Of a DNA stretch of 54,443 bases, positions 2 through 51,189 are shown one piece after another. Location: positions 1-54,443 of the forward strand of contig JAICYS010000008.1 in NCBI GenBank assembly GCA_025934105.1, read 5' to 3'. The stretch's first letter is position 1, and every line of letters begins with the position of its first letter. The stretch is from Myxococcota bacterium (lineage in GTDB: Bacteria > Myxococcota_A > Polyangia > Fen-1088). Made by a program: the position numbers and the translations under genes. Under the pieces are notes generated by a model. The model did not search any database. It was given only the letters and a program-made list of their open reading frames with translations, and was not told the DNA's origin.

Positions 2-1555
2 GCCGGGTCGTTGCGCGCGCCGGGCGACCAGCGCGCCCGGGCCGGCGCGGCGCTGGCCGCCGAGGCCGCCGAGGCGATGCGCGCGCACCCCGATCGCAGC
101 GCGGCCACCACCAGGGATCCGCCGCTGCCGCTCACCGTCGATCGGCCGCTGGCGGCGTTCAGCGCCTGGTACGAGATGTTTCCCCGCTCGTGCGGGCCGG
201 AGGGGAAGCACGGCACGCTGCGCGACGCGGAGGGCCGGCTGGACTACGTCGCCGACCTGGGGTTCGACGTGGTTTACCTGCCGCCCATCCACCCCATCGG
301 GCGCGCGCACCGCAAGGGACGCGACAACAGCCTGGCGGCGGAGACCGGCGATCCCGGCAGCCCGTGGGCGATCGGTGGTCCGGAAGGGGGGCACAAGGCC
401 GTCCACCCGCAGCTCGGGACCGTCGAAGACTTGCGGCGGTTCGTGGCGGCGGCCCGGCAGCGCGGCCTGGAGGTGGCGCTGGACGTGGCCTTTCAGACGT
501 CGCCCGATCATCCCTACGTCAAGGACCACCCCGAATGGTTCCTGCACCGCGCCGACGGCTCGGTGCAGTTCGCGGAGAATCCGCCCAAAAAGTACGAAGA
601 CATCTACCCCTTCGACTTCGCGGGCCCGGCCTGGCGAGCGCTCTGGCAAGAGCTGCGCAGCGTGTTCCTGCACTGGATCGACCAGGGCGTCCGCGTGTTT
701 CGCGTCGACAACCCGCACACCAAACCGATTCCGTTCTGGCGGTGGTGCATCGAGAGCGTCAAAGCCCAGCACCCCGACGTGATCTTCTTGGCGGAGGCCT
801 TCACCCGCCCCAAGCTGATGTACGTGCTGGCCAAGGCGGGGTTCTCCCAGTCGTACACGTACTTCACCTGGCGCACCTCCAAGAGCGAGCTGACCGACTA
901 CGTGCGGTCGCTGGCCGAGACCGAGGTGCGGGAGTTCTTTCGCCCCAACTTCTGGCCGAACACGCCGGACATCCTGCCCGAGCACCTGCAGGTGGGCGGG
1001 CGCGGCATGTTCATCGCACGCGCGGTGCTGGCGGCCACGCTGTCGCCGAGCTGGGGCATCTACGGTCCGCCCTTCGAGCTGATGGAGCACGTGGCGCGGC
1101 CCGGCGCCGAGGAGTACGCGCAGAACGAGAAATACCAGCTGCGCCGCTGGGACCTGGACGACCCGCGCAGCCTGCGGCCGATCATCAAGCGGTTGAACCA
1201 CATTCGACGCGACAACTCGGCGCTGCATCGGCTGGCCGGCACGGTCTTCCACCCGACCGACAACGACCGGTTGATCTGCTACAGCCGGCGCAGCGGCGAC
1301 GGGCATAACCTGTTGCTGATCGCGGTCAACCTGGATCCGCACCATGCGCAGACCGGTTGGGTCGACCTGAATCTGGACGCGCTGGGGATCCCGTCGGACG
1401 CTGCGTTCCAGGCCCACGACCTGATCGGCGACGGCCGGTACCTGTGGCGCGGCGCGCGCAACTTCATCAGCCTGGATCCGGCGGCCATGCCGGCGCAGAT
1501 CTTCCGGCTGCGCCATCACCTGCGCACCGAACGGAACTTCGAGTACTACCTATGA
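2..1555 (+). CDS. glgE: Alpha-1,4-glucan:maltose-1-phosphate maltosyltransferase GlgE, 5' end outside window
   Basis: The enzyme transfers maltosyl units from maltose-1-phosphate onto alpha-1,4-glucans in the cytoplasm (GH13_3 family). The reading frame is open to the left edge, so the N-terminal domains are missing; 517 residues are visible against about 660-700 for the family. The TTG at 11 is not a credible start. Motifs in order: FSAWYEMFPRS, the substrate loop PPIHPIGRAHRKG, FRVDNPHTKP with the nucleophilic Asp at nt 707-709, and LAEAFTRPKLM with the acid/base Glu at nt 794-796. The C-terminal beta domain ends in FEYYL. The stop overlaps the maltokinase start by ATGA, so the two are translationally coupled. 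Motif identity is clear; only the 5' extent is unknown. Confidence 0.95.
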   Translation, partial: AGSLRAPGDQRARAGAALAAEAAEAMRAHPDRSAATTRDPPLPLTVDRPLAAFSAWYEMFPRSCGPEGKHGTLRDAEGRLDYVADLGFDVVYLPPIHPIGRAHRKGRDNSLAAETGDPGSPWAIGGPEGGHKAVHPQLGTVEDLRRFVAAARQRGLEVALDVAFQTSPDHPYVKDHPEWFLHRADGSVQFAENPPKKYEDIYPFDFAGPAWRALWQELRSVFLHWIDQGVRVFRVDNPHTKPIPFWRWCIESVKAQHPDVIFLAEAFTRPKLMYVLAKAGFSQSYTYFTWRTSKSELTDYVRSLAETEVREFFRPNFWPNTPDILPEHLQVGGRGMFIARAVLAATLSPSWGIYGPPFELMEHVARPGAEEYAQNEKYQLRRWDLDDPRSLRPIIKRLNHIRRDNSALHRLAGTVFHPTDNDRLICYSRRSGDGHNLLLIAVNLDPHHAQTGWVDLNLDALGIPSDAAFQAHDLIGDGRYLWRGARNFISLDPAAMPAQIFRLRHHLRTERNFEYYL

Positions 1556-3147
1556 CGCAGCTCGGGGCGAGGTCGTGGTGGAGGGCGCTGCTCGACGGCG
1601 CGGGACGCCAGGCGCTGGCGAGGCGATTGATCGGGTACGCGCGGGAACGGCGCTGGTTCCGGGGCAAGAGCCGGGCGATCCGCGAGGCCCGCGTGGCGGA
1701 CGCGGTGCCGCTCGACGCCGAGACGCTCGACGCCGCGGCCAACGTGCTGGTGGTGCTGGAGGTGGCCTACGCCGACGGTGAGTCGGACCTCTACGTCCTG
1801 CCGCTGGCCTGGTCGGCGCCGGAGGCGCTGCGCGGGCTCCGCGATCGCCAGCCGCACGCGGTGATCGGCGGCGACGACGGGCTGGTCGACGGCCTGGCCA
1901 CCGGCGGCGCGGCGGCGGCGCTGTTCGATCTGGCGCAGGCCGCGGTCACCCGGCGCGGTGAGCGCGGCGCGCTGTCCGGCGAGAGCTCGGAGCTGTTCGC
2001 GCGGGTGGCGCCGGCGGCGGGCGCGGCGGCGCTGGGCCTGCGCGTCGCCGGCGTCGAGCAGACGAACTCGACGGTGATGTTCGGCGACCGCGCGCTCTTG
2101 AAGGTGTATCGCCAGCTCAGCGCCGGGCCGAACCCCGAGCTGGAGGTAGGACGGTTCTTGGAACGCGCTTGCGACCCACCCTGCGTTCCGCGGGTCCTGG
2201 GCGCGCTCACCTACCATCCGGACGGCGCGCCGCCGCGCAGCCTGGGCATCGTCCACGAGCTGATCGCGAACCGCGGGGATGCCTGGGCGCTGGCCCAGCG
2301 CGAGCTGGGGCGCTTCTTCGCGCGGCCGGCCGATGCGCCGCCGGACGCGGGGCGGTTCGTCGCCCACGGCGCCCTCCTCGGGCGTCGCACCGGTGAGCTG
2401 CACCTGGCGCTGGCGGGCTGCGCGCGGCCGGTCCCCGACGCGGGCCCGGATTTCGCGCCCGAGCCGCTGACCGACGGCGATCGGGGCGCGCTGGCGGATC
2501 GGACCGAGGCGATGTTGAACGACACGCTGGCGGCGCTGGGCCGGTCGGGCCGGCCCTGGCCGCTGGCCGATCGCCTGCTGGCGCCCGACGGACGCCGCGC
2601 CATCGCGCGCGTGCTGGCCGACTTTCGCGAAGCGCCGCTGCAGACGGTCAAGATCCGCACGCACGGCGATCTCCACCTGGGTCAGGTGCTGGCGGTGGCG
2701 CGGAAAGCAACCCACCGACCCGACGTCGACGACGACAGCGCCGTCGACGACTTCGTGATCATCGACTTCGAGGGGGAGCCGGCGCGCCCGCTGCGCGAAC
2801 GGCGGGCCAAGGGGTCGCCGCTGCGCGACGTGATGGGGATGGCGCGGTCGTTCGATTACGCGCCGGAGGCCGCGTTGCGCGCCGGCGGCGCCGCGCCCGG
2901 GCGCAGCGGATGGGCGCGCGCCTGGACCCGGCAGGTGGCCGGGGCGTATCTGGACGCCTACCTCCAGACCGTCGCGGGCGCCCCGTTCATCCCGCGCGAC
3001 CGCGCGCAGCTCGCGCGGCTGCTGGCCTATTACGAGTTGGAGAAGGTCGTCTACGAGGTCGGGTACGAGTTGAACAATCGGCCGGACTGGCTGGACATCC
3101 CGCTGCGCGGGTTGCTGGCGGTGGCTGGCCTGGAGAGCGGCACATGA
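1552..3147 (+). CDS. mak: Maltokinase (maltose-1-phosphate forming)
   Basis: Phosphorylates maltose with ATP to give maltose-1-phosphate, the donor used by GlgE. The ATG at 1552 overlaps the glgE stop by four bases, and a longer in-frame extension upstream lies inside glgE and is not used. The 531-residue product has the aminoglycoside-phosphotransferase-like kinase fold: a central VEQTNSTVMFGDRALLKVYR stretch (lysine of the ATP site), the catalytic loop THGDLHLGQVL near residues 370-380, the metal-binding IIDFEGEP and the family-typical RRAKGSPLRDVMGMARSFDY. The C-terminus ends in YYELEKVVYEVGYELNNRPDW. It is slightly longer than typical maltokinases (about 450). A trehalose synthase supplying maltose is not in view and may lie to the left. 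Confidence 0.93.
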   Translation: MTQLGARSWWRALLDGAGRQALARRLIGYARERRWFRGKSRAIREARVADAVPLDAETLDAAANVLVVLEVAYADGESDLYVLPLAWSAPEALRGLRDRQPHAVIGGDDGLVDGLATGGAAAALFDLAQAAVTRRGERGALSGESSELFARVAPAAGAAALGLRVAGVEQTNSTVMFGDRALLKVYRQLSAGPNPELEVGRFLERACDPPCVPRVLGALTYHPDGAPPRSLGIVHELIANRGDAWALAQRELGRFFARPADAPPDAGRFVAHGALLGRRTGELHLALAGCARPVPDAGPDFAPEPLTDGDRGALADRTEAMLNDTLAALGRSGRPWPLADRLLAPDGRRAIARVLADFREAPLQTVKIRTHGDLHLGQVLAVARKATHRPDVDDDSAVDDFVIIDFEGEPARPLRERRAKGSPLRDVMGMARSFDYAPEAALRAGGAAPGRSGWARAWTRQVAGAYLDAYLQTVAGAPFIPRDRAQLARLLAYYELEKVVYEVGYELNNRPDWLDIPLRGLLAVAGLESGT

Positions 3148-5054
3148 CCGACAGAGACGTCACGCTGGGGCCCATCGACCTGCACCTTTTGGCCGAGGGG
3201 ACGCACGCCCGGCTGTTCGAAAAGATGGGCGCGCAGGTGACGGCGCGCGACGGAAGGCCCGGCACGCAGTTCTCGGTCTGGGCGCCCAACGCGGAGACCA
3301 TCGACCTCATCGGCGACTGGAACGGGTGGCGCCTCGGCGAGACCCCGATGCGGTCGCTGGGCCCGTCGGGCGTCTGGCAGGCGTTCGTGCCGGGCGTCGG
3401 GCCCGGGCAGCGGTACAAGCTGCACATTCGGTCGCGCCACGACGGGTACACGGTGAACAAGGCCGACCCGTTCGCCTTCGCCAGCGAGGTCCCGCCGCTG
3501 ACCGCCTCCGTCGTCGCCAGCCTGGATTACGGCTGGAACGACGCCGACTGGATGCGCGCGCGCCGCGAGCGGAACGCGCTGGAGGCGCCCGTGTCGGCCT
3601 ACGAAGTGCACCTCGGCTCGTGGATGCGCGATCCGGCGCGCCCGGGGCAGGTGTTGAGCTTCCGCGAGCTGGCGCCCCGGCTGGCCGAGCACGTGCAGCG
3701 CTGCGGCTTCACGCACGTCGAGCTGATGCCGATCATGGAGCACCCGTTTTACGGGTCGTGGGGGTATCAGGTCACCTCGTTCTTCGCGCCGAGCGCGCGT
3801 TACGGCGCGCCGGAGGACTTCATGTTCTTCGTCGACACGCTTCATCGCAGCGGGATCGGCGTGCTACTCGACTGGACGCCGGCGCACTTTCCCACCGACG
3901 AGCACGGCCTCATCTACTTCGACGGAACGCACCTTTACGAGCACGCCGACCCGCGGCGCGGGCTTCACGCCGAATGGGGAAGCGCCGTGTTCAACTACGG
4001 CCGCAACGAGGTCCGCAGCTTCCTGCTGTCGAACGCGGTGTTCTGGCTGGACCGCTACCACATCGACGGGCTGCGCGTCGACGCGGTCGCCTCGATGCTG
4101 TACCTGGACTACGGCCGCAAGGCCGGCCAATGGATCCCCAACCAGTACGGCGGCAACGAGGACCTGGAGGCGGTCGACTTCCTGAAGACCTTCAACGCCA
4201 CCGTCTACCGCGAGCGGCCCGACGTGCAGACCATCGCCGAGGAGTCGACCGCCTGGCCGATGGTGTCGCGGCCGACCTATCTGGGCGGCCTGGGGTTCGG
4301 GCTGAAGTGGGACATGGGTTGGATGCACGACACGCTGGCCTACTTCCAGAACGACCCGGTCTACCGGCGCTACCACCACAACAAGCTGACCTTCCGCGGC
4401 CTCTACATGTTCAGCGAGAACTTCGTGCTGCCGCTGTCGCACGACGAGGTCGTGTACGGCAAGCGGTCGCTGCTGAACAAGATGCCCGGCGACGACTGGC
4501 AGAAGTTCGCCAACCTGCGGCTGCTCTACGCCTATATGTGGGCGCAGCCCGGCAAGAAGCTGCTGTTCATGGGCGGCGAGTTCGGGCAGTGGAACGAATG
4601 GAACCACGACGTCAGCCTGGACTGGCACCTCTTGCGGCAGGGGGCGGCGCACGGCCAGCTGCAGCTCCTGATCGGCGAGCTCAATCGCCTGTATCGGGCC
4701 GAGCCCAGCTTGCACCGGCGTGACGCCGACCCGCGCGGGTTCGAATGGATCGCGGCCGACGACGTCGAGAACAGCGTCTACGCGTTCCTGCGCACGGGCG
4801 GCGACGGGGACCAAACGATCCTGGGCGTCTTCAACTGCACGCCGATCCCGCGGTTCAACTACCGCATCGGCGTTCCCGGCGAAGGCGTCTGGGCGGAGGT
4901 GCTGAACACCGACGCGGCGGCGTTCGGAGGCAGCAATCACGGCAACGTGGGCGGCGTCGAAGCTACGCCTGTCCCCTCGCACGGCCGGCCGTTCTCGCTG
5001 AACCTGACGCTGCCGCCGCTGGGCGCTCTCTACCTCAAGCGCGCCGACGGCTGA
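3144..5054 (+). CDS. glgB: 1,4-alpha-glucan branching enzyme GlgB, GlgE-operon copy
   Basis: Introduces alpha-1,6 branches into the linear glucan made by GlgE. The ATG at 3144 overlaps the maltokinase stop (ATGA). The 636-residue protein has one N-terminal CBM48-like module (FSVWAPNAETIDLIGDWNGW) and lacks the extra N-terminal module of the 728-residue E. coli enzyme. The GH13 barrel carries HVELMPIMEHPFYGSWGYQ, nucleophile Asp313 in DGLRVDAVASMLY, acid/base Glu366 in TIAEEST and the transition-state Asp in LPLSHDEVVYGK. A C-terminal all-beta domain follows (SLNLTLPPLGALYLK). It is the last gene of the glgE-mak-glgB unit. A clearly paralogous glgB lies at 30088-31983 on the other strand. Confidence 0.95.
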   Translation: MTDRDVTLGPIDLHLLAEGTHARLFEKMGAQVTARDGRPGTQFSVWAPNAETIDLIGDWNGWRLGETPMRSLGPSGVWQAFVPGVGPGQRYKLHIRSRHDGYTVNKADPFAFASEVPPLTASVVASLDYGWNDADWMRARRERNALEAPVSAYEVHLGSWMRDPARPGQVLSFRELAPRLAEHVQRCGFTHVELMPIMEHPFYGSWGYQVTSFFAPSARYGAPEDFMFFVDTLHRSGIGVLLDWTPAHFPTDEHGLIYFDGTHLYEHADPRRGLHAEWGSAVFNYGRNEVRSFLLSNAVFWLDRYHIDGLRVDAVASMLYLDYGRKAGQWIPNQYGGNEDLEAVDFLKTFNATVYRERPDVQTIAEESTAWPMVSRPTYLGGLGFGLKWDMGWMHDTLAYFQNDPVYRRYHHNKLTFRGLYMFSENFVLPLSHDEVVYGKRSLLNKMPGDDWQKFANLRLLYAYMWAQPGKKLLFMGGEFGQWNEWNHDVSLDWHLLRQGAAHGQLQLLIGELNRLYRAEPSLHRRDADPRGFEWIAADDVENSVYAFLRTGGDGDQTILGVFNCTPIPRFNYRIGVPGEGVWAEVLNTDAAAFGGSNHGNVGGVEATPVPSHGRPFSLNLTLPPLGALYLKRADG

Positions 5055-8600: not shown

Positions 8601-9686
8601 TCACGGACCAGAGCCGCCGGCGCTTCGGTTCGAAAAGCGCGCGTTGCCGAGGCCGGTGCCGATGGTCAGCACGCCCCAGTGGTCCACGTCCTGAACGTAG
8701 GCCAGGTCGCTGAGGCCGTGAACGACGGCGTCGTTGTGCAGGACCACCAGCGTGCCGTGTCCGTCGATCTTCGGGATCAGCTCGCGCAGCCGCTGCGGCA
8801 GGTTGAACCGGCTGCTCTCCCAGTTGCCGGGCAGGTTCTGCCCGCCCCGCTCGATGCGCCCGTCGGCGGCGATGATCCCGGGGCAGCCCACGCCGATGAA
8901 GGGCGCCAGCTTCACCTGGCTCTTCTCGGACCGCTTGATCAGCCGCTCCAGCATGTTGCCGATCTTTTCGACCGCCTCCTCGCGCGAGGGCTTGGCCTTC
9001 TCGTCGGCGTAGCGCCACAGCTCCAGCTCGTCGACCGTGCCGCGCGCGATGTCGCCCGACTTCTTGGCGTTCTTCCAGGGGCGCAGCTCGACCAGGCCGG
9101 CCCGCAAGTTCGACCCCCCGATGTCCACGGCCAGGATCGCGTCGTGCCCGTCCAGCATCCAGGCCGGCGCCAGGTGGATGGCGCCCAGCAGGCCGGCCTC
9201 GTCCGGGTGGTTGCGCACCGGCACGAGGTCGATCTTGTGCCCGGCCGCCTTCAACAGCACCGACGTCCGCCCGATGGCCAGCTCGCCCACGCGGCTGGAC
9301 CGCAGGCCGCCGCCCACCACGATCCGCTGGGTGTCGCGCCACGACTTCAGCTTCAAGAAGCGCGTCACCACCGTCGACAACTCGCCGGCGAAGTCTTCGA
9401 TGGCGCCCTGAATGATGCCGGCGGCCTCGGGCTCGCCCTCGACCAGCACCTTGTCCATCTTCTTCTTGGGCAGCTCGTCGCTGGGCGTGTCCCCCAGCGG
9501 GTCTTCGTCCGTCGCGTTCCGGATCCGGTCGCGCCATTCGTCCAGGATGGCGCGAAAGGCCCGGTTGCTGGCGCGGTCGCCGATGAATCCTTCGGCGTCG
9601 CGCAGCTCGGCGTTGTAGGCGTCCACCGTCACGACCTGCAGGTCGGCCGATCCGTGCGCGATGCTGATGGGGGCGGGGTCGCTCAC
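8601..9686 (-). CDS. ROK-family sugar kinase-like protein with circularly permuted motif order
   Basis: The 361-residue product contains ROK kinase elements in an unusual order. Residues roughly 70-160 resemble the normally C-terminal lobe: AAGIIQGAIEDFAGELSTVV, RIVVGGGLRSS (near 124) and DEAGLLGAIHLAP. Only then does the normally N-terminal phosphate loop appear, LAVDIGGSNLRAGLVEL (Asp188), followed by GVGCPGIIAADGRIE, GGQNLPGNW, NDAVVHG (catalytic-type Asp near 318) and IGTGLGNARF at the very end. Each motif occurs once, so this is a permutation rather than a duplication. The CxCG zinc motif of classical ROK enzymes is absent. The start is uncertain: GTG at 9686 (VSDPAPIS) is chosen without a good ribosome site. 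Glucose kinase activity is plausible but unproven. Confidence 0.72.
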   Translation of the reverse strand: MSDPAPISIAHGSADLQVVTVDAYNAELRDAEGFIGDRASNRAFRAILDEWRDRIRNATDEDPLGDTPSDELPKKKMDKVLVEGEPEAAGIIQGAIEDFAGELSTVVTRFLKLKSWRDTQRIVVGGGLRSSRVGELAIGRTSVLLKAAGHKIDLVPVRNHPDEAGLLGAIHLAPAWMLDGHDAILAVDIGGSNLRAGLVELRPWKNAKKSGDIARGTVDELELWRYADEKAKPSREEAVEKIGNMLERLIKRSEKSQVKLAPFIGVGCPGIIAADGRIERGGQNLPGNWESSRFNLPQRLRELIPKIDGHGTLVVLHNDAVVHGLSDLAYVQDVDHWGVLTIGTGLGNARFSNRSAGGSGP

Positions 9687-12073: not shown

Positions 12074-13327
12074 GTGGCGCATGCGTTGAAGATCGTGCCG
12101 GTTTCGGACACCGCGGCCGATCCCGTCTCGTCGGCGCGCGCGGCCGGGCTGCGCCACGTCGAGGACACCCGGCCCGGCATCCGGCGCCGGCCGACCGGCA
12201 AGAAGGCGCGGCAGGGCAAGCGGTTCGTTCCGCAGTTCGTCTACGAGCAGCCCGACGGCCGCCGCGTCGACGACGCCGCCACCGAAGAGCGCATCCGCAA
12301 GCTGGCCATCCCGCCCGCCTGGACCGACGTCTGGATCTGCCCCGATCCCGGCGGTCACCTGCAGGCCACCGGCCGGGACGCGCGGGGCCGCAAGCAATAC
12401 CGGTATCACCCGCGCTGGCGCGACGAGCGCGACAGCACCAAGTACTCGCGGATGATCGCCTTCGGCCAGGCGCTGCCTCACCTGCGCCGGCGCATCGCCG
12501 GCGACCTGCGGCTGCCGGGGCTGCCGCGGCGCAAGGTGCTGGCCACGGTGGTCCGCCTGCTGGAAACGACCTTCATGCGGGTCGGCAACGAGGAGTACGC
12601 GCGCAGCAACAAGTCGTTCGGGCTGACCACGCTCAAGGACCGCCACGTGGACTTCGGACCCGCCGAGGTGCGGTTCCATTTTCGCGGCAAGAGCGGCGTC
12701 ATGCACGACGTGGCCGTGCACGACCGCGCCGTGGCGCGCATCGTGCGGCGCTGCCGCGATCTGCCCGGCCAAGAGCTGTTTCAATACCTGGGCGAGGACG
12801 GCCAGCCCGCCACCATCGACTCCGCCGACGTCAACGATTACATCCGCGAGGCGACCGGGCACGACTTCACCGCCAAGGACTTTCGGACCTGGGCGGGGAC
12901 GGTGCTGGCGGCGCTGGCGCTGCAGGAGGTGGACGCCGCGGCCGAGAGGCTGCCGCGGCGGAGCAGCCGCCCGGGGCCGCGCAAGCCAAGCCCGCGCGAC
13001 GTGTCGCGCGCCATCGAGCGGGTGGCCGAGCGGCTGGGGAACACGCCGGCCGTCTGCCGAAAATGCTACGTCCACCCGGAGGTCATCGCCGCCTACATGG
13101 ACGGGACGCTGGCGGCCGCGGTGAAGCGGCCGGTGGAATCGCACCTGGCGGCGCGGCGGCCGGGCGCGCTGCGCCCCGAGGAGGCGGACGTGCTGGCGTT
13201 GTTGCAGCGGCGCCTGGCCGAGGAGAAGCGCGGCGGCCGCCTGGAAAAGCAGCTGCGGCGATCGCTGCGGGCCGTGGGGCGGACGGGTCGGCGCGCAGGG
13301 GGGCACCGGTGGCGCTCGACGGCGTGA
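12074..13327 (+). CDS. DNA topoisomerase IB (poxvirus-like)
   Basis: Relaxes supercoils through a transient 3'-phosphotyrosyl nick. The 417-residue protein starts at a GTG (MAHALK) after a short GAGG; it has the N-terminal domain RRRPTGKKARQGKRF, ..IRKLAIPPAWTDVWICP, GRKQYRYHPRWR, and the catalytic domain with RVGNEEYARSNKSFGLTTLK (catalytic Arg and Lys), FRGKSGVMHDV, DFTAKDFRTWAGT (catalytic Arg) and the nucleophile Tyr332 in CRKCYVHPEVI. All expected residues are present. The C-terminal tail is basic (RRSLRAVGRTGRRAGG). It is convergent with nothing but is overlapped by the HAD remnant at its 3' end. Confidence 0.94.
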   Translation: MAHALKIVPVSDTAADPVSSARAAGLRHVEDTRPGIRRRPTGKKARQGKRFVPQFVYEQPDGRRVDDAATEERIRKLAIPPAWTDVWICPDPGGHLQATGRDARGRKQYRYHPRWRDERDSTKYSRMIAFGQALPHLRRRIAGDLRLPGLPRRKVLATVVRLLETTFMRVGNEEYARSNKSFGLTTLKDRHVDFGPAEVRFHFRGKSGVMHDVAVHDRAVARIVRRCRDLPGQELFQYLGEDGQPATIDSADVNDYIREATGHDFTAKDFRTWAGTVLAALALQEVDAAAERLPRRSSRPGPRKPSPRDVSRAIERVAERLGNTPAVCRKCYVHPEVIAAYMDGTLAAAVKRPVESHLAARRPGALRPEEADVLALLQRRLAEEKRGGRLEKQLRRSLRAVGRTGRRAGGHRWRSTA

Positions 13328-18949: not shown

Positions 18950-19984
18950 ATGACCACGACGGCGATGGTTCGTTTGGCTGTTTGCGGCGCTCTTCTGGCG
19001 GCTGCGGGCTGCGGCAAGGCCGGCGACGACGAGTTCGAGGGCAGCACGCCCACCAAGGACACGGTGGCGCTGGAGCTCCCGTCCTCGACGGCGAACGCGC
19101 CGGCGACGGCTCGCGCGGGCGGCCTGTCGGTCCGGGGTGGCGCGCTGCTGGGCGACGTCGCGAAGGACTACCTGCTGACCGCGACGGTGGTCGGCGTGGT
19201 CAACGGCGCGGCCGCCTCGATCTTGAACCTGGTGCGCGACATCACCGACTTTCCACCCACCACGATCAGCGGCGACACCGCCGTCTGGGGGCCGGCCACC
19301 GCCGCGCTCAGCGCGAACACCTATCGCTTGACGGTCACGCGGACGGCGCCGCACGTGTTCACGTACCAGCTGGACGGCAAGGGGAAGAACGCGCCCGACA
19401 CCGCCTTCGTGACCGTGCTGTCGGGAACGCACACGCGCGCGCTGGACGCGAGCGGGAACGTGATGAAGGGGTTCGGCAGCGGTGACTTCACGCTGGACTT
19501 CGACGCCGCGGCCACGCTTCCGCAGCACGACGACGGCGTCGGGCAGATCGCGTTCCAGTACTCGCGCACCAGCCCCACCGCGACCACCACCATCGGCGTG
19601 ACGTTCGCGGGCGTGCAGGATCACTGCGACCCGACCACCTGCCAGACCAGCGGGCAGATCTTCGACGCGGTCTACGCCTACACCGCCACGCCCGGCGACG
19701 GCGGCGATCTGCAGTACGCCGACATGAAGGACTACCTGCCCGCCAGCAGCGCCAAGGAGACGCTGGAGCTTCACAGCCGCTGGCTGCAGACCGGCACGGG
19801 CCGGACCGACATGCAGCTCTCGGGCGGCGACGTCGGGGCGGCGGCCCAGACCTCCAGCGAGTGCTGGGACGCGAATTTCCTCTCGGTGTACAGCGGCACG
19901 ACCTACGATCCCACGCTGGACTGGGGCGTCGAATCGAGCTGCCCGTTCTCCACCGCCGCCTACGCGTCGCTGGCGGTGCAGTAA
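18950..19984 (+). CDS. Hypothetical lipoprotein
   Basis: A 344-residue exported protein. The ATG at 18950 follows AAAGGGAGAG and yields the lipoprotein signal MVRLAVCGALLAAAGC (lipobox AAGC), so the mature protein starts at Cys. The remainder is strand-rich with many Thr and Asp (YRLTVTRTAPHVFTYQLD, TTTIGVTFAGVQDHCD) and four late Cys, two in DHCDPTTCQ and two in the last 50 residues, likely disulfides. No known domain or catalytic motif is recognised. The gene has its own ribosome site and sits between kinase and PilZ genes with no evidence for a shared pathway. Confidence 0.75.
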   Translation: MTTTAMVRLAVCGALLAAAGCGKAGDDEFEGSTPTKDTVALELPSSTANAPATARAGGLSVRGGALLGDVAKDYLLTATVVGVVNGAAASILNLVRDITDFPPTTISGDTAVWGPATAALSANTYRLTVTRTAPHVFTYQLDGKGKNAPDTAFVTVLSGTHTRALDASGNVMKGFGSGDFTLDFDAAATLPQHDDGVGQIAFQYSRTSPTATTTIGVTFAGVQDHCDPTTCQTSGQIFDAVYAYTATPGDGGDLQYADMKDYLPASSAKETLELHSRWLQTGTGRTDMQLSGGDVGAAAQTSSECWDANFLSVYSGTTYDPTLDWGVESSCPFSTAAYASLAVQ

Positions 19985-30087: not shown

Positions 30088-31983
30088 TCAGGGGCCCGGC
30101 TTCAGATACAGCGCGGCCAGCGGCGGCAGCGTCAGGCGCAGGGAGGCGGGGCGGCCGTGGGCGGGGTGGGCGTCGGCGGTGACGGCTCCCAGGTTGCCCA
30201 GGCCGCTGCCGCCGAACGCGCTGGCGTCGGTGTTCAGGATCTCGCGCCAGGTGCCGCCCAGCGGGACGCCGACGCGGTAGTCGTGGCGCGGGACGGGGGT
30301 GCAGTTGAGGACCACCAGGATCACCTCGTCGGGGGCGCGCCCCTTGCGCAGGAAGGTGTAGACGCTGTTGTCGTCGTCGTTGGCGTCGACCCACTCGAAG
30401 CCGAACAGGCCGGCGTCGTAGACGTGCAGCGCCGGCTCGCGCTGGTACAGGCGATTGAGCTCCATCACCAGCGTCATCAGCTCGACGTGCAGGGGGTCGT
30501 CGCCCAGGAGGTGCCAGTCGACGCTGCGGTCGTGCGCCCACTCGTCGTACTGGCCGATCTCGCCCCCCTGAAACAGCAGCTTCTTGCCGGGCTGGGCCCA
30601 CATCTGCGCATAGAGCAGGCGCAGGTTGGCGAAGCGCTGCCACAGGTCGCCGTGCATCTTCTGCAGCAGCGAGCGCTTGCCGTGCACGACCTCGTCGTGT
30701 GACAGCGGCAGGACGTAGTTCTCGCTCCAAAAGTACATGCCGCGGAACGTGATCCGCTGGTGGTGGTAGCGGCGGCCGATCGGATCGCCGCTGAAGTAGG
30801 CCAGCGTGTCGTGCATCCACCCCATGTCCCACTTGAGGCCGAAGCCCAGGCCGCCGGTGTACGTGGGGCGCGAGACGCCCGGCCAGGACGTCGACTCCTC
30901 GGCGATGGTCTGCGTGTCGGGATGGTCGCGGTACGTGGCGGTGTTGAACATCCGCAGGAACTCGATGGCTTCCAGGTTCTCGTTGCCGCCGTAGCGGTTG
31001 GCGACCCACTCGCCGCCCCGCCGCCCGTAATCCAGGTACAGCATCGACGCGACCGCGTCCACGCGCAGTCCGTCGATGTGGTACCGGTCCAGCCAGAACG
31101 TGGCGTTCGACAGCAAGAAGCTGCGCACCTCGTTTCGGCCGTAGTTGAAGATCGCGCTTCCCCACTCGGCGTGCACGCCCTGGCGCGGGTCGGCGTGCTC
31201 GTAGAGGTGCGTCCCGTCGAAGTAGATGAGGCCGTGCTCGTCGGTGGGGAAATGGGCCGGCGTCCAGTCGAGGACCACGCCGATGCCTTCCTGGTGCAGG
31301 TGATCGACGAGGAACATGAAGTCCTGCGGCGTGCCGTAGCGGGCGGTCGGCGCGAAGAACCCGGTCACCTGGTAGCCCCACGAGGGATAAAACGGGTGCT
31401 CGGCGATCGGCAGCAGCTCGACGTGCGTGAAGCCGCAGCGGCGCACGTGGGCCGCCAGCTTGGGCGCGATCTCCCGATACGTCAGCCAGCGGTTCTTTTC
31501 TTCGGGCACGCGCATCCACGAGCCGAGGTGCACCTCGTAGATCGACTGCGGCGCGTCCAGCGCGTTGCGCGCGCGCCGGGCCTGCATCCAGTCGCCGTCG
31601 GCCCAGTCGTGGTCCAGGTCCCAGACGATCGACGCCGTGGCCGGCGGCAGCTCGCAGCGGATGCCGTAGGGGTCCGCCTTGTCGACGCGGTAGCCGTCGT
31701 GGCGCGACTCGATGCGATACTTGTAGCGCGTCCCCTTGGCCAGTCCCGGGACGAAGGCCGACCAGATGCCGGACGCGCCGACCGGCTGCAGCGGCGCCGG
31801 CGCGCGGCCCCAGCCCTCGAAGTCGCCGATGACCGAGACCCGCGCCGCGTTGGGTGCCCAGACCGCGAACGCCACCCCCAGGCGCCCGCCTTCGGTGGTG
31901 AGGTGCGCGCCCAGACGCTCGTAAGCGCGGGCGTGCGTTCCTTCGGCGAAGAGGTGTAGGTCGACGTCGCCGAGGCGGGGCAT
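30088..31983 (-). CDS. glgB: 1,4-alpha-glucan branching enzyme GlgB, second copy
   Basis: A complete 631-residue branching enzyme, paralogous to the GlgE-operon copy at 3144. N-terminal CBM48-like part FAVWAPNAARVSVIGDFEGW, then HVELLPIAEHPFYPSWGYQ, HIDGLRVDAVASMLYLDYG (nucleophile Asp), QTIAEESTSWPGVSRP (acid/base Glu) and LPLSHDEVVHGKRS. The motifs and order match throughout, and the catalytic parts are highly similar to the first copy (YNYGRNEVRSFLLSN and HEHGLIYFDGTHLY-like stretches are nearly identical), but linkers and the N-terminus differ. It is a single gene between a barrel-like gene and the TPR gene, not in an operon with other glycogen genes. Confidence 0.95.
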   Translation of the reverse strand: MPRLGDVDLHLFAEGTHARAYERLGAHLTTEGGRLGVAFAVWAPNAARVSVIGDFEGWGRAPAPLQPVGASGIWSAFVPGLAKGTRYKYRIESRHDGYRVDKADPYGIRCELPPATASIVWDLDHDWADGDWMQARRARNALDAPQSIYEVHLGSWMRVPEEKNRWLTYREIAPKLAAHVRRCGFTHVELLPIAEHPFYPSWGYQVTGFFAPTARYGTPQDFMFLVDHLHQEGIGVVLDWTPAHFPTDEHGLIYFDGTHLYEHADPRQGVHAEWGSAIFNYGRNEVRSFLLSNATFWLDRYHIDGLRVDAVASMLYLDYGRRGGEWVANRYGGNENLEAIEFLRMFNTATYRDHPDTQTIAEESTSWPGVSRPTYTGGLGFGLKWDMGWMHDTLAYFSGDPIGRRYHHQRITFRGMYFWSENYVLPLSHDEVVHGKRSLLQKMHGDLWQRFANLRLLYAQMWAQPGKKLLFQGGEIGQYDEWAHDRSVDWHLLGDDPLHVELMTLVMELNRLYQREPALHVYDAGLFGFEWVDANDDDNSVYTFLRKGRAPDEVILVVLNCTPVPRHDYRVGVPLGGTWREILNTDASAFGGSGLGNLGAVTADAHPAHGRPASLRLTLPPLAALYLKPGP

Positions 31984-38784: not shown

Positions 38785-39741
38785 ATGTTCGCTTGGGGGG
38801 GTCGGTCCGCGCTCGCGGCCGTCGCGGGGCTCGCGGCACTGGTGTTGTTCGGCACGGTCTGTTCCGTCGACAACGCGGGACTCGTCAGCGGTTCTGGCGG
38901 CGTGGGCGGCGGCATCAAGGGCAACGGCGGCTCGGCCGGTCACATCGGCGGCCATGGCGGCGGGGCCGCCGGCGGCAGCGTCGGCTCTGGCGGCACGGTC
39001 GCCACCGGCGGCCATGGCTCTGGCGGCGTGGTCGGCTCTGGCGGCGTGGTCGGCTCTGGCGGCGTGGTCGGCTCTGGCGGCGTGGTCGGCTCTGGCGGCG
39101 TGGTCGGCGCTGGCGGCACAGCAGGCCACGGCAGCGGGGGGACGGCGGGCGGCGCCGGCATGGGCATGGGTGGCGCCGCCGGCAGCGGGGGCGACAGCGG
39201 CACCGGCGGAATGAACGGCACCGGCGGCCGCGGCGGCTCCGGCGGCCATCCTCCGAGCTGCGCCTCGTTCCCGGCCGGCATGTCGTTCACCACGCCCACG
39301 GACGGCCGCCTGCACTGCTACTGGGTTCACGGCAACCAGATCGACTGGAACAGCGCCGAGACCGTCTGCGAAAACGAGGGCGGCACGCTGGTGACCCTCC
39401 TGTCGGAGAGCGAGAACGCCTTCGTGGTGGATTTCGTGGCCGGCGTGGGTCTGTTCACGGGGATCGGCATGACCGGCCAGGTGTTCATCGGCGCGACCGA
39501 CGGAGCGGCCCTGGACGATCGCAACGGCGGCGGCGACTACGCCTGGATCACCGGCGAGCCCTGGACGTACCACAACTGGAATCGGAGCCAACCCGACAAC
39601 GCGTGCACCGGCTGCATGGGCCCGGGACCCAGCACCAGCTGCATGTGCGATCACCGCGGCGCCATCGCGTCCGACGGGACCTGGTATGACCGCACCGAGA
39701 CCTCGATGCGGCCGTTCGTCTGTGAAGCGATCGCCAAGTAA
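38785..39741 (+). CDS. Secreted C-type lectin domain protein with Gly-rich linker
   Basis: A 318-residue exported protein: hydrophobic signal GRSALAAVAGLAALVLFGTV, then a long Gly/Ser linker with repeated GSGGVV, and a C-terminal C-type lectin-like domain of ~145 residues. Conserved features are HCYWVHGNQIDWNSAETVC, GGTLVTLLSESENAFV, WITGEPWTYHNW and RSQPDNAC with a Q269-P270-D271 motif that in animal lectins gives galactose-type preference, and SDGTWYDRTE in place of the WND motif. Six or more Cys could form the usual disulfides. It overlaps the GH1 glycosidase gene by 20 bases. The start ATG 38785 sits 20 bases from the divergent gene; a TATTCT-like box lies at 38771-38778, giving a very short leader. 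Confidence 0.75.
   Translation: MFAWGGRSALAAVAGLAALVLFGTVCSVDNAGLVSGSGGVGGGIKGNGGSAGHIGGHGGGAAGGSVGSGGTVATGGHGSGGVVGSGGVVGSGGVVGSGGVVGSGGVVGAGGTAGHGSGGTAGGAGMGMGGAAGSGGDSGTGGMNGTGGRGGSGGHPPSCASFPAGMSFTTPTDGRLHCYWVHGNQIDWNSAETVCENEGGTLVTLLSESENAFVVDFVAGVGLFTGIGMTGQVFIGATDGAALDDRNGGGDYAWITGEPWTYHNWNRSQPDNACTGCMGPGPSTSCMCDHRGAIASDGTWYDRTETSMRPFVCEAIAK
39016..39105 (+). repeat. Five perfect 18-bp tandem repeats
   Basis: The unit GGCTCTGGCGGCGTGGTC occurs five times head to tail and encodes GSGGVV five times inside the linker of the C-type lectin protein. A sixth copy is diverged. Units in frame and identical suggest recent slippage. No spacer sequences, so it is not a CRISPR. Confidence 0.95.
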
Positions 39742-41137
39742 ATTCGCGCTGGCGCTGGCGCTGGTGCTGGCGGCCGGTTGCCGCGAGACGCTGCGGTTCA
39801 CGCCCGCTCAGATCGCCGCGCACCGGATGCTGGACGGCGCCCCGCCCGGGTTCCTGCTGGGCGCGGCCACGTCGGCGTATCAGATCGAGGGCGGCAACCA
39901 CAACGACTGGACGGCCTGGGAGAAGGGACGCTACCCCGACGGCAGGCCGCACGTCGCCGACGGGTTGACCGCCGATCGGCTGGACGACTCCTGGAACCGC
40001 TGGCCGGCCGACGTGGCTGCCCTGCGCGTGCTGGGCGCGAACGTCTACCGCCTGGGCGTCGAGTGGAGCCGCCTCGAGCCGGCCGAGGGGACCTGGGACG
40101 CGGCCGCGGCGGCGCGCTACCGGCAGATGTTCGCGGCGCTGCGGGCGGCGCACGTGGCGCCGATGGTGACCCTTTACCACTTCACGCTGCCGACCTGGAT
40201 CGCGGCGCGCGGCGGCTGGGACTGGCCGGGCACGCCGGCGGCGCTGGCGGCCTTCGCCGGGCGCGCCGGGGCCGCGTTCGGTGACCTCGTCGACTGGTGG
40301 TGCACCATCAACGAGCCGAACGTGCTGGTCGCCAAGAGCTACCTGGCCGGCCAGTGGCCGCCGGGCGCACGCGATCCGGCGCGGGCGGCGCGGGTCATGG
40401 CGGCCCTCATGCGGGCCCACGGCTTGATGGCGCTGGCGCTCCGCCAGAACGACCGTACCGACGCCGACGGCGACCAACGCGCCACCCAGATCGGGATCGC
40501 CCAGAACCTCCGGATCTTCGACCCGGCGTCGGCCAGCCCGCTGGACGGCCTGGTGGCGGGCGCCGCCGACGGGTTTTACGACGAGTCGTTCCTGGACGCC
40601 GTCACCCTGGGCCGCATCCGGGTGGTGCTCCCCGGCGTGGCGGACATCGACGAGCCGTTCCCTCCGCTGGCCGGCAGCTTCGATTACCTGGGCATCAACT
40701 ATTACACGCGCGACCGCGTGGTCGGCCGGCTCTCGGGCTCGCCGCCCTACCGCGCGCTGCCGGCGGACGATCGCCCGCACAGCGACCTCGGCTGGGAGAT
40801 CTACCCAGAGGGTCTCTATCGGCTGCTGCTCCGGTACAGCCACCGCGGCTGGCCGTTGCTGGTGACCGAAAACGGCGTCGCCGACGCGGGCGGCGCGATC
40901 CGACCGGAGTTCCTGCGCGCGCATCTCTATGCGGTCGACCGCGCGCGCGCCGACGGGGTGGACGTGCGCGGCTACATCTTCTGGTCGCTGCTGGACAACT
41001 TCGAGTGGTCGCACGGCGCGCGCGGCCGGTTCGGTCTGTTCTCGGTCGACTTCGCCGACCCGGACCTGGTGCGCCGCCCCACGGCCGCCGTCGCGACGTT
41101 CCGGGAAGCCGCGCGCAACCTGGGCACGCTGCGCTGA
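39722..41137 (+). CDS. GH1 beta-glucosidase/beta-galactosidase family lipoprotein
   Basis: A 471-residue secreted glycosidase. The start is GTG 39722, giving a lipoprotein signal (FALALALVLAAGC, lipobox AAGC). The (beta/alpha)8 GH1 fold is complete: PPGFLLGAATSAYQIEGG, YRLGVEWSRLEP, acid/base Glu198 in CTINEPNV, nucleophile Glu383 in LVTENGVAD, and YIFWSLLDNFEWSHG. Most bacterial GH1 enzymes are cytoplasmic, so a lipid-anchored one is noteworthy. The substrate (beta-glucoside, galactoside) is not certain; the nearby cellulases favour cellobiose or cello-oligosaccharide. It overlaps the lectin gene by 20 bases, suggesting coupled translation. Confidence 0.88.
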   Translation: MKRSPSKFALALALVLAAGCRETLRFTPAQIAAHRMLDGAPPGFLLGAATSAYQIEGGNHNDWTAWEKGRYPDGRPHVADGLTADRLDDSWNRWPADVAALRVLGANVYRLGVEWSRLEPAEGTWDAAAAARYRQMFAALRAAHVAPMVTLYHFTLPTWIAARGGWDWPGTPAALAAFAGRAGAAFGDLVDWWCTINEPNVLVAKSYLAGQWPPGARDPARAARVMAALMRAHGLMALALRQNDRTDADGDQRATQIGIAQNLRIFDPASASPLDGLVAGAADGFYDESFLDAVTLGRIRVVLPGVADIDEPFPPLAGSFDYLGINYYTRDRVVGRLSGSPPYRALPADDRPHSDLGWEIYPEGLYRLLLRYSHRGWPLLVTENGVADAGGAIRPEFLRAHLYAVDRARADGVDVRGYIFWSLLDNFEWSHGARGRFGLFSVDFADPDLVRRPTAAVATFREAARNLGTLR

Positions 41138-41272
41138 CCCAGGGCCGTTCGGTCAAGGCCAGCGGCCGACGAGCGGGCCGCCGGTCAGGCCGGGCGGCGA
41201 GTGAACGGCATCGGTTCTAACCCGGCTAAATCGCGGCGAGACAGAGGCTTGGCACGGGTCGGACCCCGGCTT

Positions 41273-41336
41273 GACTCGCAGGGGTTGCCTATGGTTGTGT
41301 GCTGCGAGTCCCATCGTTCCGTACATGCCGTACATG
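41273..41336 (+). promoter_or_regulatory. Hairpin and tandem repeat in the leader of the heme-c lipoprotein gene
   Basis: GACTCGCAG (41273-41281) and CTGCGAGTC (41302-41310) form a perfect 9-bp stem with a 20-base loop. It is followed by CCGTACATG twice in tandem (41319-41336). A TTGACT (41271-41276) coincides with the left arm and could be a -35 box. The gap from 41138 to 41358 holds no other gene. Function as operator or mRNA leader structure is inferred. Confidence 0.45.
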
Positions 41337-41358
41337 GGGTGGGGCCGTGGCTAGCCTG

Positions 41359-43266
41359 ATGAAGCGCGTCCGCTTGGCCCTATTCGTCTCGCCGTCATGC
41401 CTGTTGCTGGCGTGCGCGGGCGTCAAGTCGGCGCCCTCCGGCGCCGGGGCGACGGGCGGGTCGCCCGGGACGAATGGCAGCGGCGGCAGCTTGTCGATGG
41501 GCAGCGGCGGCAGCAGCGAGAGCGGCGCGGGCGGCAGCGCCGCGGCCGCGAAGTGCCCCGACGGCTGCACCGATTTCGCCGGCGGCCCCTTCGGTCCCGA
41601 CGGGACGACCACGGTCCCGGCCAACGCCGCGCAGATCTTCAGTGGCGCCCCCGCCGCCACCGGCGGCCCCTGCCTGCTGGAGCCGCAAGAGGGCACGCTG
41701 TTGCCCAACAACTGGCTGCGCCCGCGTTTCAGCTGGACGTCGACCGCGACCGGCGATCTCTACGAGTTGCACGTCACCGCGCCCAACCAGAACGCGGATC
41801 TGATCGTGTACACGGACAAGACCACCTGGACGATGCCGCAGCCGATGTGGCTGGGGCTGGCCAACCACACGCAGGGCATGCCGATCGAGGTGACGGTGCT
41901 CTCGGCGCACAACGGCTCGGTGTCGACGGGGACCAGCGCCTCGTTCACGGTCGCGCCCGTCGGCGCCAGCGGCAGCCTGGTCTACTGGTCGCCGCAGGGC
42001 TCGACCAACGGCGGCAACACGGTGGCCGGCCTGACGACCCTTTACGGTTTCGAGGTGGGCGACGACTCCGTCGACCAGGTGTTGGGCTGCGGCAAGGTGG
42101 CCGGCGTCCTCCAGTGCGACATCCAGACCTCGGACTGGGAGACGCTGGACAATGGCCTCGCCCCCGAGCCCGTGCAGTGCATCGGCTGCCACACCTCGAC
42201 GCCCGACGGCGAGTACATCTCGTTCAACAACTACTATCCGTGGGGTGGCGTGCTGGCGCCGGGGCAGCCCGACGCCATGGGGCACCGCCCGCCGCCGCCG
42301 TTCCTGGGAGCCGGCGGCTACAAGTCGTTCGCGCAGCCCTGGCTGGGGATCACGACCTATTCGATCAACCACTGGGCGGCGCTGGACCACGTCGTGGTGG
42401 CGCCGCTGGGCGGAAAGGGGTCGTCCACCAGCGACACGGACCAACAGCCGGGACTGGCCTGGTTCGATCTCGAGAACGGCACGTTTCCCGCGAACGGCCA
42501 GAGCCCGTTCACGGCGCTGAAGGGGATGGCCTGGGACTGGATTTTCCCCCCCACCTCCGGCCAGTACGCGGCCGCCCCCTCCTGGAGCCACCTGCCGCGC
42601 CCGGCCGACGACTTCATCGTGTTCACGGCGACCAGCAACGTGAAGTCCGGCCGCCTCGGCACCGGCACGGCGCACCTCTATCGCGTGCCGTACGCCAGGA
42701 CCGGCGCCCAGACGGCGATGCCGATCCCCGGCCTCGACGACATGACCAGCCCGAAGTACGCGCAGTACTACGGATCGCTGTCGTTCGACGACGCGTACAT
42801 CGTCTACGACCAGGTCGACGCCAAGTTGGCCGCTGCCGAACACGCCGACCTCAACACCAGCGACGCGGGCGGCAGCACGTGGAGCGGGATGTACATGCAG
42901 CCGGCCACCGAGCTTTACGTGACGCCGACCAGCGGCGGGCCGGGCATTCGCCTGGCGGCCAACGACCCGCCCAAGTGCCCGGGCCAGCCGGCCAGCCCGG
43001 GGGTCGACAACACCTGGGCCAAGTGGTCGCCCGAGGTGGCGACGTACGACGGGAACACGTACTACTGGCTGATCTTCTCGTCGTGGCGGCAGGGGGCCAA
43101 GGACGCCAACGGCTCGCCCATCGCGCAACTCTACATGACCGCCATCGTGAAGCCCGAGGCTGGGCCGATTCAGACCTACCCGGCCGTGTACCGTTGGAAC
43201 CAGCCCGCCAAAGTGAGTAATTTCACGCCCGCCTGGGACGTCTTCAAGATTGGCAACGTCGGTTGA
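41359..43266 (+). CDS. Lipoprotein with a single heme-c binding motif and beta-propeller-like body
   Basis: A 635-residue exported lipoprotein; ATG 41359 gives SPSCLLLACAGV with Cys as lipid site. After a Gly/Ser linker comes a strand-rich body with a fibronectin-like part (PRFSWTSTATGDLYELHV) and repeated strands typical for a TolB-like propeller (YGSLSFDDAYIVYDQVD, PGIRLAANDPPKCPG, YYWLIFSSWRQGAK). Residues 274-278 are CIGCH, a classical c-type heme motif, within QCIGCHTSTPDGEYISF. Proteins with the CxGCHxxSPDG context occur in Myxococcota and the function is not established. Heme would need a periplasmic attachment system. No nearby redox gene is in the window. The ATG is preferred to a GTG 12 bases upstream. 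Confidence 0.78.
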   Translation: MKRVRLALFVSPSCLLLACAGVKSAPSGAGATGGSPGTNGSGGSLSMGSGGSSESGAGGSAAAAKCPDGCTDFAGGPFGPDGTTTVPANAAQIFSGAPAATGGPCLLEPQEGTLLPNNWLRPRFSWTSTATGDLYELHVTAPNQNADLIVYTDKTTWTMPQPMWLGLANHTQGMPIEVTVLSAHNGSVSTGTSASFTVAPVGASGSLVYWSPQGSTNGGNTVAGLTTLYGFEVGDDSVDQVLGCGKVAGVLQCDIQTSDWETLDNGLAPEPVQCIGCHTSTPDGEYISFNNYYPWGGVLAPGQPDAMGHRPPPPFLGAGGYKSFAQPWLGITTYSINHWAALDHVVVAPLGGKGSSTSDTDQQPGLAWFDLENGTFPANGQSPFTALKGMAWDWIFPPTSGQYAAAPSWSHLPRPADDFIVFTATSNVKSGRLGTGTAHLYRVPYARTGAQTAMPIPGLDDMTSPKYAQYYGSLSFDDAYIVYDQVDAKLAAAEHADLNTSDAGGSTWSGMYMQPATELYVTPTSGGPGIRLAANDPPKCPGQPASPGVDNTWAKWSPEVATYDGNTYYWLIFSSWRQGAKDANGSPIAQLYMTAIVKPEAGPIQTYPAVYRWNQPAKVSNFTPAWDVFKIGNVG

Positions 43267-43422
43267 TCTCCTGCTGGAACCCTGGAAGCGTTTCTCCACC
43301 GCCCGGCGACGAGCTCCGTCGGGCCAGCCCTGGCTTCGTGCATGCGCCGTCGCGCGGCAAATTCGACACGGCAGCACGCAGCACCCGTAAAAATCGAGTC
43401 CTGCTGGTGCAGTGGGGGACTC

Positions 43423-43428
43423 TATAAC
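43423..43428 (+). promoter_or_regulatory. Putative -10 box upstream of barrel gene
   Basis: TATAAC sits 22 bases before the ATG of the barrel gene and lies just beyond GAGTCC/GGGGACTC, a short inverted repeat at 43396-43422. The -35 is not clear. A GAAGG ribosome-binding site follows around 43435-43439. Confidence 0.35.
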
Positions 43429-43449
43429 CCACCGAGAAGGTCCATCCCC

Positions 43450-45282: not shown

Positions 45283-45314
45283 AACGGCCCGTTCGTTCGA
45301 AACGAGGAATGACA

Positions 45315-46088
45315 ATGAAGAGCGACGCAATGAAACTGTTCCTGGGCCTCTGTGGCGGCTCGTTGCTGGCGATGGGGTGTGTGATCCCCGAGAAGCAGGC
45401 GCCCAGCGCGACGCCGGGATCGGCGGCCTCGATCGGCGGCGGCAACGCCTCCGCTGCCGGCGTGCCGGCCGCGCTGGCCGGATTCAAGGAGTGCCCGGAC
45501 GGCCTCATCGACGACGGCGAGGACGGCAACAACCAGAACCTCCCCATCGGCGACCGGGGCGGTTACTGGTACACCTTCAAGGACAAGGGGACGACCACCG
45601 TCGACCCGCCGGCCGGTGAAGAGGGCGGCACCTTCGCGATGAGCGAGGGCGGCCACAACTCGAAGTACGCGGCCCGCTTCCACGGCACCGTCGGCACGGG
45701 CGCCATCGTGTTTTCGGGGATGGGCACCAACCTGATCGACCCCAAGGGGCCGTACGACGCGTCCCGGTACGCCGGCATCGCGTTTTGGGCCAAGCGCGGC
45801 CCGGATTCGACCGGCAAGGTGCGTCTGAAGGTGCCGGACGTGAACACCGACCCGGACGGCGGCGTCTGCACCGAGTGCTTCAACGACTTCGGCGGCGACC
45901 TGAACCTGACCACCGACTGGAAGCTCTACATCTACCCCTGGAAGAGCATGAAGCAGGAGGTCGGCTGGGGGAACCCGCTGCGCCACCACATCACGCCCGA
46001 GAAGCTCTACGGCGTGCAGTTCCAGGTGAAGGTTCCGCGGGCCAACTACGACATCTACATCGACGATCTGAAGTTCATCTGCCAGTGA
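45315..46088 (+). CDS. Lipoprotein with carbohydrate-binding-like jelly-roll domain
   Basis: A 257-residue exported lipoprotein (ATG 45315 behind GAGG; lipobox LAMGC). The domain from residue ~60 has the look of CBM11/CIA30-type jelly rolls: LIDDGEDGNNQNLPI, GGYWYTFKDKGTTTVDP, KYAARFHGTVGTGAIVFSGM, SRYAGIAFWAKRG, TDWKLYIYPWKSMKQ and a closing DIYIDDLKFIC. Aromatic residues in the strands (Trp, Tyr) could contact glucan. Two Cys pairs, CTECF and the final C, are possible disulfides. It lies 32 bases after the porin gene and 52 before a terminator. Role as cell-surface glucan binder is inferred. Confidence 0.75.
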   Translation: MKSDAMKLFLGLCGGSLLAMGCVIPEKQAPSATPGSAASIGGGNASAAGVPAALAGFKECPDGLIDDGEDGNNQNLPIGDRGGYWYTFKDKGTTTVDPPAGEEGGTFAMSEGGHNSKYAARFHGTVGTGAIVFSGMGTNLIDPKGPYDASRYAGIAFWAKRGPDSTGKVRLKVPDVNTDPDGGVCTECFNDFGGDLNLTTDWKLYIYPWKSMKQEVGWGNPLRHHITPEKLYGVQFQVKVPRANYDIYIDDLKFICQ

Positions 46089-46139
46089 ACGCGTGAGGGC
46101 CGGCGGGCATTGGCCCGGCGGCTCGCGTCGCGGAACATC

Positions 46140-46168
46140 AAAAGGGCCCTTCGCGGGCCCTTTTTTTT
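46140..46168 (+). terminator. Rho-independent terminator after the lipoprotein gene
   Basis: AAAAGGGCCC (46140-46149), loop TTCGC, GGGCCCTTTT (46155-46164) form a perfect 10-bp stem followed by more T to 46168. It ends the porin-lipoprotein unit before the cellobiose phosphorylase start at 46184, so that gene needs its own promoter or read-through. Confidence 0.92.
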
Positions 46169-46183
46169 GTAGAGTAGCGCGCG

Positions 46184-48616: not shown

Positions 48617-48760
48617 GCGGCCGCCGCACGACGAGCTCCACGCGCCGAGCGCGGAGCTCGCGCTTTGCGTTCAGCGGTGGCGATCCGGATTCCCGCGGTC
48701 CCGCCGCGCTGAATCCGGAGCTGGTGCCCCGCGACGGTCCCCACCGATCGATGTTCGCGC

Positions 48761-48798
48761 AAAAAAAGGGCCGCTCGCCTTCAGGCGAACGGCCCTTT
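48761..48798 (-). terminator. Rho-independent terminator for the minus-strand lipoprotein gene
   Basis: AAAGGGCCG (48765-48773) and CGGCCCTTT (48790-48798) pair, with an inner TCGCCT/AGGCGA stem and TC loop. The flanking run of A at 48761-48767 becomes a U-tract on the minus strand, so it mainly ends the gene at 48836-49705; a weak TTTG flank may serve the plus strand. The 219 bases 48617-48835 hold nothing else. Confidence 0.88.
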
Positions 48799-48835
48799 GT
48801 TCCCGCAGCAGCGCCGAGCGGCGCCACACCGGTCG

Positions 48836-49705: not shown

Positions 49706-49732
49706 GATCCTTTTAGGCCTCGTGTGATCGGT

Positions 49733-49809: not shown

Positions 49810-49890
49810 GACCTTACCCCCGTCAAGCGGCTGGCCCGCAGCGTTCGGGCCCGTTTTCTGCTCTCATTTCCTTATCCAGGAGGCTTGTTG

Positions 49891-51159: not shown

Positions 51160-51189
51160 GCGCCGGCCTTCGCCGGGCCGCCGCCGCGG

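Follow-up and report, generated by a model that had tools for sequence, protein, structure and literature searches.

A putative phosphotransferase with a circularly permuted ROK fold in a Myxococcota genome and its relatives in Pseudomonadota

The gene and the order of its motifs

The window analyzed here is a stretch of 54,443 nucleotides from contig JAICYS010000008.1 of a Myxococcota assembly (GCA_025934105.1), and it encodes a protein of 361 residues that carries the motifs of ROK sugar kinases in an unusual order (Table 1). A first-pass annotation had proposed that motifs normally found at the C-terminal end of these kinases precede the phosphate loop normally found near residue 10, and that a motif normally found in mid-protein closes the chain. 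The order RIVVGGGLRSS, DEAGLLGAIHLAP, DIGGSNLRAG and IGTGLGNARF (the last at residues 342-351) bears this out, and each motif does occur once, in a single uninterrupted frame. We took the GTG codon as the start to match the N-termini of the family described below; starting instead from the in-frame ATG at 9809 would lengthen the protein by 41 residues, an extension foreign to the family.

Table 1. Positions in the window of the permuted gene and of the parts of its product.
Feature	Residues	Position	Strand	Remarks
Permuted ROK-type kinase gene	1-361	8601..9686	minus	GTG 9686, stop 8601-8603
Canonical ROK C-terminal half, now N-terminal	1-180	9147..9686	minus	hhalign and fragment fold
New N-terminal segment in place of ExGH, CxCG...C and GC[LI]E	11-40	9567..9656	minus	
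RIVVGGGLRSS, adenosine-side GGG motif	121-131	9294..9326	minus	canonical place near the C-terminus
DEAGLLGAIHLAP, canonical C-terminal helix motif	162-174	9165..9203	minus	NCBIfam and hhalign
AWMLDGHD, linker from old C-terminus to old N-terminus	175-182	9141..9164	minus	rotation optimum 180
DIGGSNLRAG, phosphate-1 loop	188-197	9096..9125	minus	canonical place about residue 10
QNLPGNW, canonical NLxxW loop, sugar side	283-289	8820..8840	minus	invariant in 61/61
HND, with N318-D319 as canonical Asn and catalytic-base Asp	317-319	8730..8738	minus	hhalign alignment
IGTGLGN, phosphate-2 loop	342-348	8643..8663	minus	canonically mid-protein, here beside the C-terminus

Alignment and predicted structure of the permuted protein

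The Pfam ROK model (PF00480) matches the protein at 32.4 bits against a cut-off of 22.9, with its best stretch at residues 225-354. NCBIfam ROK models align in crossed order, the C-terminal part of the model first and the N-terminal part second: positions 211-283 of the 291 in the beta-glucoside kinase model match residues 92-171, and positions 4-141 of the polyphosphate glucokinase model match residues 186-352. For profile-profile comparison with hhalign, the canonical reference was a profile of ROK kinases from relatives of the host. In native order, residues 186-343 of the family profile matched canonical positions 5-138 (score 98.1) and residues 35-176 matched positions 181-299 (score 57.9), the second match being crossed relative to the first.

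The crossing disappeared when the family profile was doubled in tandem, which gave one continuous match of 186-531 to canonical 5-299, and also when the profile was rotated at residue 180, which gave a single match of 280 columns with about 21% identity (score 133.5, probability 99.1). Other rotations, taken in 30-residue steps, scored between 72.8 and 119.9, with the score dropping on either side of residue 180, and five column-shuffled controls scored 13.7-17.2. The optimum sits inside the AWMLDGHD linker between the old termini. The canonical segment order, with phosphate-1 N-terminal and GGG C-terminal, is thus replaced by one that is circularly permuted at residue 180, and colinearity with canonical ROK kinases solely after rotation near this residue agrees with the earlier proposal of a permutation rather than a fusion or duplication. 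We regard a circularly permuted ROK fold as nearly certain.

Structure prediction, which the first-pass annotation had suggested as a check, was run with AlphaFold2 using 61 family members and returned a single confident fold for the full chain (mean pLDDT 91.7, pTM 0.90), with high confidence in the linker as well; in this model the two-lobed ASKHA fold appears to be kept. A Foldseek search with the whole chain matched about 175 columns in ManNAc kinases and ROK repressors (for 2yhy, 177 columns with an rmsd of 2.3 and a TM-score of 0.44 on the target). A match to one half is expected because Foldseek is bound to sequence order and can align just one half of a permuted chain.

The coverage of chiefly the second half by the Pfam ROK model would also suit a fusion in which an unrelated N-terminal domain precedes an ordinary C-terminal ROK ATP lobe, one of two outcomes that had been named as refuting the permutation. 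We consider such a fusion very improbable. The N-terminal half (residues 1-181) folded separately (pLDDT 82.7), and its top eight PDB matches were all ROK-family proteins (probability 0.90-0.99, best E 0.026), including the ROK kinases 6jdh, 3vgk and 2aa4 (probability 0.99, E 0.026-0.037). These matches are modest yet consistent, with fragment-normalized TM-scores of 0.39-0.51 for the best ROK hits and none with E below 0.001. The same half aligns by itself to canonical ROK positions 181-299, at the score given above, and no trace of the canonical second half follows IGTGLGNARF. With both its profile alignment and its fold leading to ROK kinases, an unrelated N-terminal domain was ruled out.

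Distribution and active site of the permuted family

A scan of species-representative genomes gave 547 candidate stretches encoding relatives, the best 80 of which were read in detail. These 80 have the same segment order, an N-half followed by the ATP lobe, which is the arrangement the first-pass annotation had suggested looking for in homologs, and the complete members have their termini in common: nearly all have their start just ahead of a conserved HGA...YNxELRD...GFxGDRAS segment and their stop a few residues past LTIGTGLGNARFTNR (one locus is cut by a contig end, and some have short extra tails). The gene is also carried by 205 plasmid records, mostly from Rhizobium and Sinorhizobium, of which 204 cover most of the protein length; where these copies are annotated, it is usually as 'ROK family protein'. 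Since the order is shared by the 80 loci and the plasmids, neither a frame error, the second refuting outcome, nor a local rearrangement accounts for it. That an assembly or sequencing artefact displaced the halves has a negligible probability, since 80 independent loci and, in other organisms, 204 plasmid records show the same order across most of the protein, and we rejected assembly or frame error on these grounds. The gene first noticed in this window is therefore not a one-off; it belongs to a fixed family with several hundred members, which would be spread over Pseudomonadota and a number of Myxococcota.

We also searched 142 genomes of one alphaproteobacterial class with a query rearranged into canonical order. 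It recovered solely permuted members, in two pieces each, in five of these genomes, and no canonical-order close relatives or tandem intermediates were seen among the 142. Occurrence is patchy elsewhere, with the gene present in 27/199 genomes of one order. Of the 237 genomes in a sample of the phylum, the host's alone has the gene, which is absent from the other 236 and from 58 close relatives.

Contamination was considered as a source of the contig and judged unlikely, as pieces of a methionine synthase encoded on this contig share 76-85% identity with their counterparts in genomes of the same genus. Because the contig belongs to the genome and the gene is absent from relatives, lateral gain is the simplest reading and fits the window's copy best. 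In a tree, this copy forms a long branch, and no partner is grouped with it at good support.

Canonical ROK kinases carry ExGH, a CxCG..GC zinc site and then a Glu in a loop, and the roles of these residues, like that of the Asn-Asp pair, are established for glucokinase and human ManNAc kinase. The permuted family keeps the motifs associated with phosphotransfer: DIGG, GTG, GGG, QNLPGNW and HND are invariant in 61/61 members. The DxGG[TS] phosphate-1, GTG phosphate-2 and GGG adenosine-side motifs are all present with invariant glycines (G125-G127 in the last of these), and N318-D319 is found in every member. Also invariant are D188, G190, G191 and R195 in the phosphate-1 loop and T341, G343-G345, G347 and N348 in the phosphate-2 loop, soon after which the proteins of all members stop.

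The sugar and zinc motifs are lost. The absence of the CxCG zinc site, already noted in the first-pass annotation, holds for the family, in which neither CxCGxxGC nor its Glu was found among the conserved residues; the one conserved cysteine, C268, lies outside that region. Beyond the zinc ligands, no conserved E-x-x-H was found within residues 10-41 of the 61 members, and the Glu of GC[LI]E, the third sugar-binding Glu, is absent. The new termini of the family fall in the canonical ExGH/zinc loop. In the segment that stands there instead, at residues 11-40, L16, N25, G36 and D37 are invariant and H11, G12, Y24, E27 and R38 nearly so. It is uncertain how residues 11-34 pair with the canonical loop, as two alignments differ: hhalign pairs E32 (E or D in 57/61) with the canonical third Glu, and the modeled helix start puts the invariant G36, not E32, opposite this residue. 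In neither pairing do E-x-x-H and the zinc cysteines have a conserved partner.

From this pattern we infer that phosphotransfer was retained and the sugar pocket rebuilt without zinc. The conserved motifs suggest that the protein is likely an active phosphotransferase, and it is fairly likely that its sugar site is changed and zinc-free. With a segment of the pocket replaced, substrate preference has probably changed and a structural zinc would be unneeded. Because the canonical contacts E, H and E are all missing, the protein may phosphorylate no sugar at all.

Promoters, neighboring genes and possible function

Upstream of the gene we found GGAAC-N16/17-CGTT, the published EcfG general-stress motif (PMC3892343, PMC6599016), with at most one mismatch at 45 of 71 loci, nearly all alphaproteobacterial, against a background expectation of 1.2. 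The motif is exact at 13 of the 45 and lies mostly 47-83 bases ahead of the chosen start; loci with such EcfG/RpoE2-type promoters include L001, L008, L023, L046, L060, L076, L114 and L115. The 71 are the loci outside Myxococcota and the gamma/other set, and counts against background are given here as safer than enrichment probabilities, which treat related loci as independent. No EcfG-type promoter was found in the 7 Myxococcota loci scanned, and none was recognizable by eye in the sequence upstream of the window's copy. The main text of the EcfG-regulon and rhizobial-stress papers that we searched does not name the gene. For the alphaproteobacterial relatives only, membership in the general stress regulon is likely.

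No operon partner is common to the whole family (80 loci), and several lineages have trehalose, glycogen or osmoprotectant genes as neighbors. In Rhizobium and Shinella the gene adjoins otsB in divergent orientation, otsB is also present in the flanking sequence of three further loci, two from Hyphomicrobium and one from Rhizobiales (L064, L068 and L071), and in S. meliloti the gene adjoins the peptidase gene of the NAGGN osmoprotectant system. In Bradyrhizobium diazoefficiens, trehalose synthesis is controlled by EcfG (PMC8092242). Promoter and neighbors support a role in stress carbohydrate metabolism.

In the window itself, positions 77-5054 (+) encode a GlgE_C/alpha-amylase protein, a maltokinase N-terminal cap protein and a GlgB-type branching enzyme, a cluster that looks like a trehalose-to-glucan (GlgE-type) pathway and lies about 4-10 kb from the permuted gene. 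A second GlgB is encoded at 30091-31983 (-), and a set for degradation of cellulose or beta-glucan (GH1, GH94, GH8 and GH9 with CBM4_9 and CelD_N) at 39686-53796. Two predicted frames, both long and strongly biased in codon usage, have no Pfam match (41299-43263 (+), 655 residues; 18950-19981 (+), 344 residues). Close to the permuted gene, at 12074-13327 (+), is a bacterial topoisomerase IB; as the genes listed as dependent on EcfG in Sphingomonas melonis include one for topoisomerase IB (PMC6599016), this segment may be a stress-gene island.

Our best reading, which we hold to be quite probable, is that the family consists of naturally permuted, zinc-free, stress-induced phosphotransferases of the ROK type with a rebuilt sugar pocket. 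A short linker joins the old C- and N-termini, and new termini have arisen in the loop that leads from the IGTGxG phosphate-2 strand to the ExGH/zinc segment. In the cleft, ATP would be bound by DIGG, GTG and GGG, and D319 would be the base for a sugar-like hydroxyl that N318 and the QNLPGNW side keep in place. The strongly conserved new N-terminal segment, HGA...YNxE...GDRAS, takes the place of ExGH/CxCG/E, the part of the sugar pocket that zinc orders. In many Alphaproteobacteria, transcription of the gene would probably depend on the general-stress sigma factor EcfG, and the enzyme may serve stress carbohydrate or compatible-solute metabolism. More tentatively, by opening the zinc/sugar loop the permutation may itself have ended the enzyme's dependence on zinc and ExGH. 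The enzyme may now phosphorylate another sugar, or an osmolyte, that is linked to stress, and may be a long-standing component of the general stress response in Alphaproteobacteria.

Two rival readings bear on the reaction. A permuted kinase might use polyphosphate instead of ATP, or a polyol or osmolyte instead of a sugar. The rebuilt pocket and the osmoprotectant genes among the neighbors would suit another acceptor, and a polyphosphate-glucose phosphotransferase model does match, at 21.3 bits, far under its cut-off of 250; however, the adenosine-side GGG motif is invariant, and we think a different donor or acceptor somewhat unlikely. It is unlikely that the permuted fold has ceased to be a kinase and, through binding of ATP or of a sugar phosphate, takes part in the stress response as a sensor or a regulatory partner. 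ROK proteins have turned into repressors, as in Mlc and NagC, and the loss of ExGH, the zinc ligands and the third Glu, together with the stress-type regulation, would fit such a conversion, but neither N318-D319 nor any of the phosphate loops varies among the 61 members, which is unusual in a pseudo-enzyme, and a DNA-binding domain is absent from the 361 residues.

The first-pass annotation knew of no description of such a protein. This stands for the permutation, which we did not find described in the open-access literature that was searched; it does not stand for the proteins, whose members already bear the ROK family annotation. The search likewise gave neither an assay nor a solved structure. 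As far as we found, the permutation as such and the EcfG-type promoter upstream are new. The promoter offers a testable role for an uncharacterized gene of rhizobia and related soil bacteria.

Among known proteins, the rhizobial-plasmid 'ROK family proteins' WP_018070614.1 and WQO38951.1 belong to the permuted family and share about 54% identity with the window's protein, and their annotation gives only the ROK family name without mention of the permutation. The label conceals the permutation, and canonical ROK zinc and sugar specificity would be wrong if transferred with it. Polyphosphate glucokinase and hexokinase, of the ASKHA superfamily, have phosphate-loop motifs in common with the family and give weak profile and Foldseek matches, but they have canonical order and different sugar-site motifs, and the best sequence-profile matches of the family are to ROK proteins. 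ROK repressors of the NagC/Mlc type have an N-terminal winged helix-turn-helix, which is absent here by Pfam and in the model. With the ROK kinases (PF00480: bacterial glucokinase, ManNAc kinase, beta-glucoside kinase), every segment of the fold can be aligned after rotation, DIGG, GTG, GGG and Asn-Asp are kept and a two-lobed fold is predicted; unlike them, the permuted family lacks ExGH, CxCG...C and the third Glu and has a permuted order with termini in the zinc/sugar loop. Natural circular permutation of large two-lobed enzymes is rare, and because the break here lies in the loop of the sugar and zinc ligands, the permutation is coupled directly to the change in the active site, making the family a clean case for the joint evolution of permutation and new specificity.
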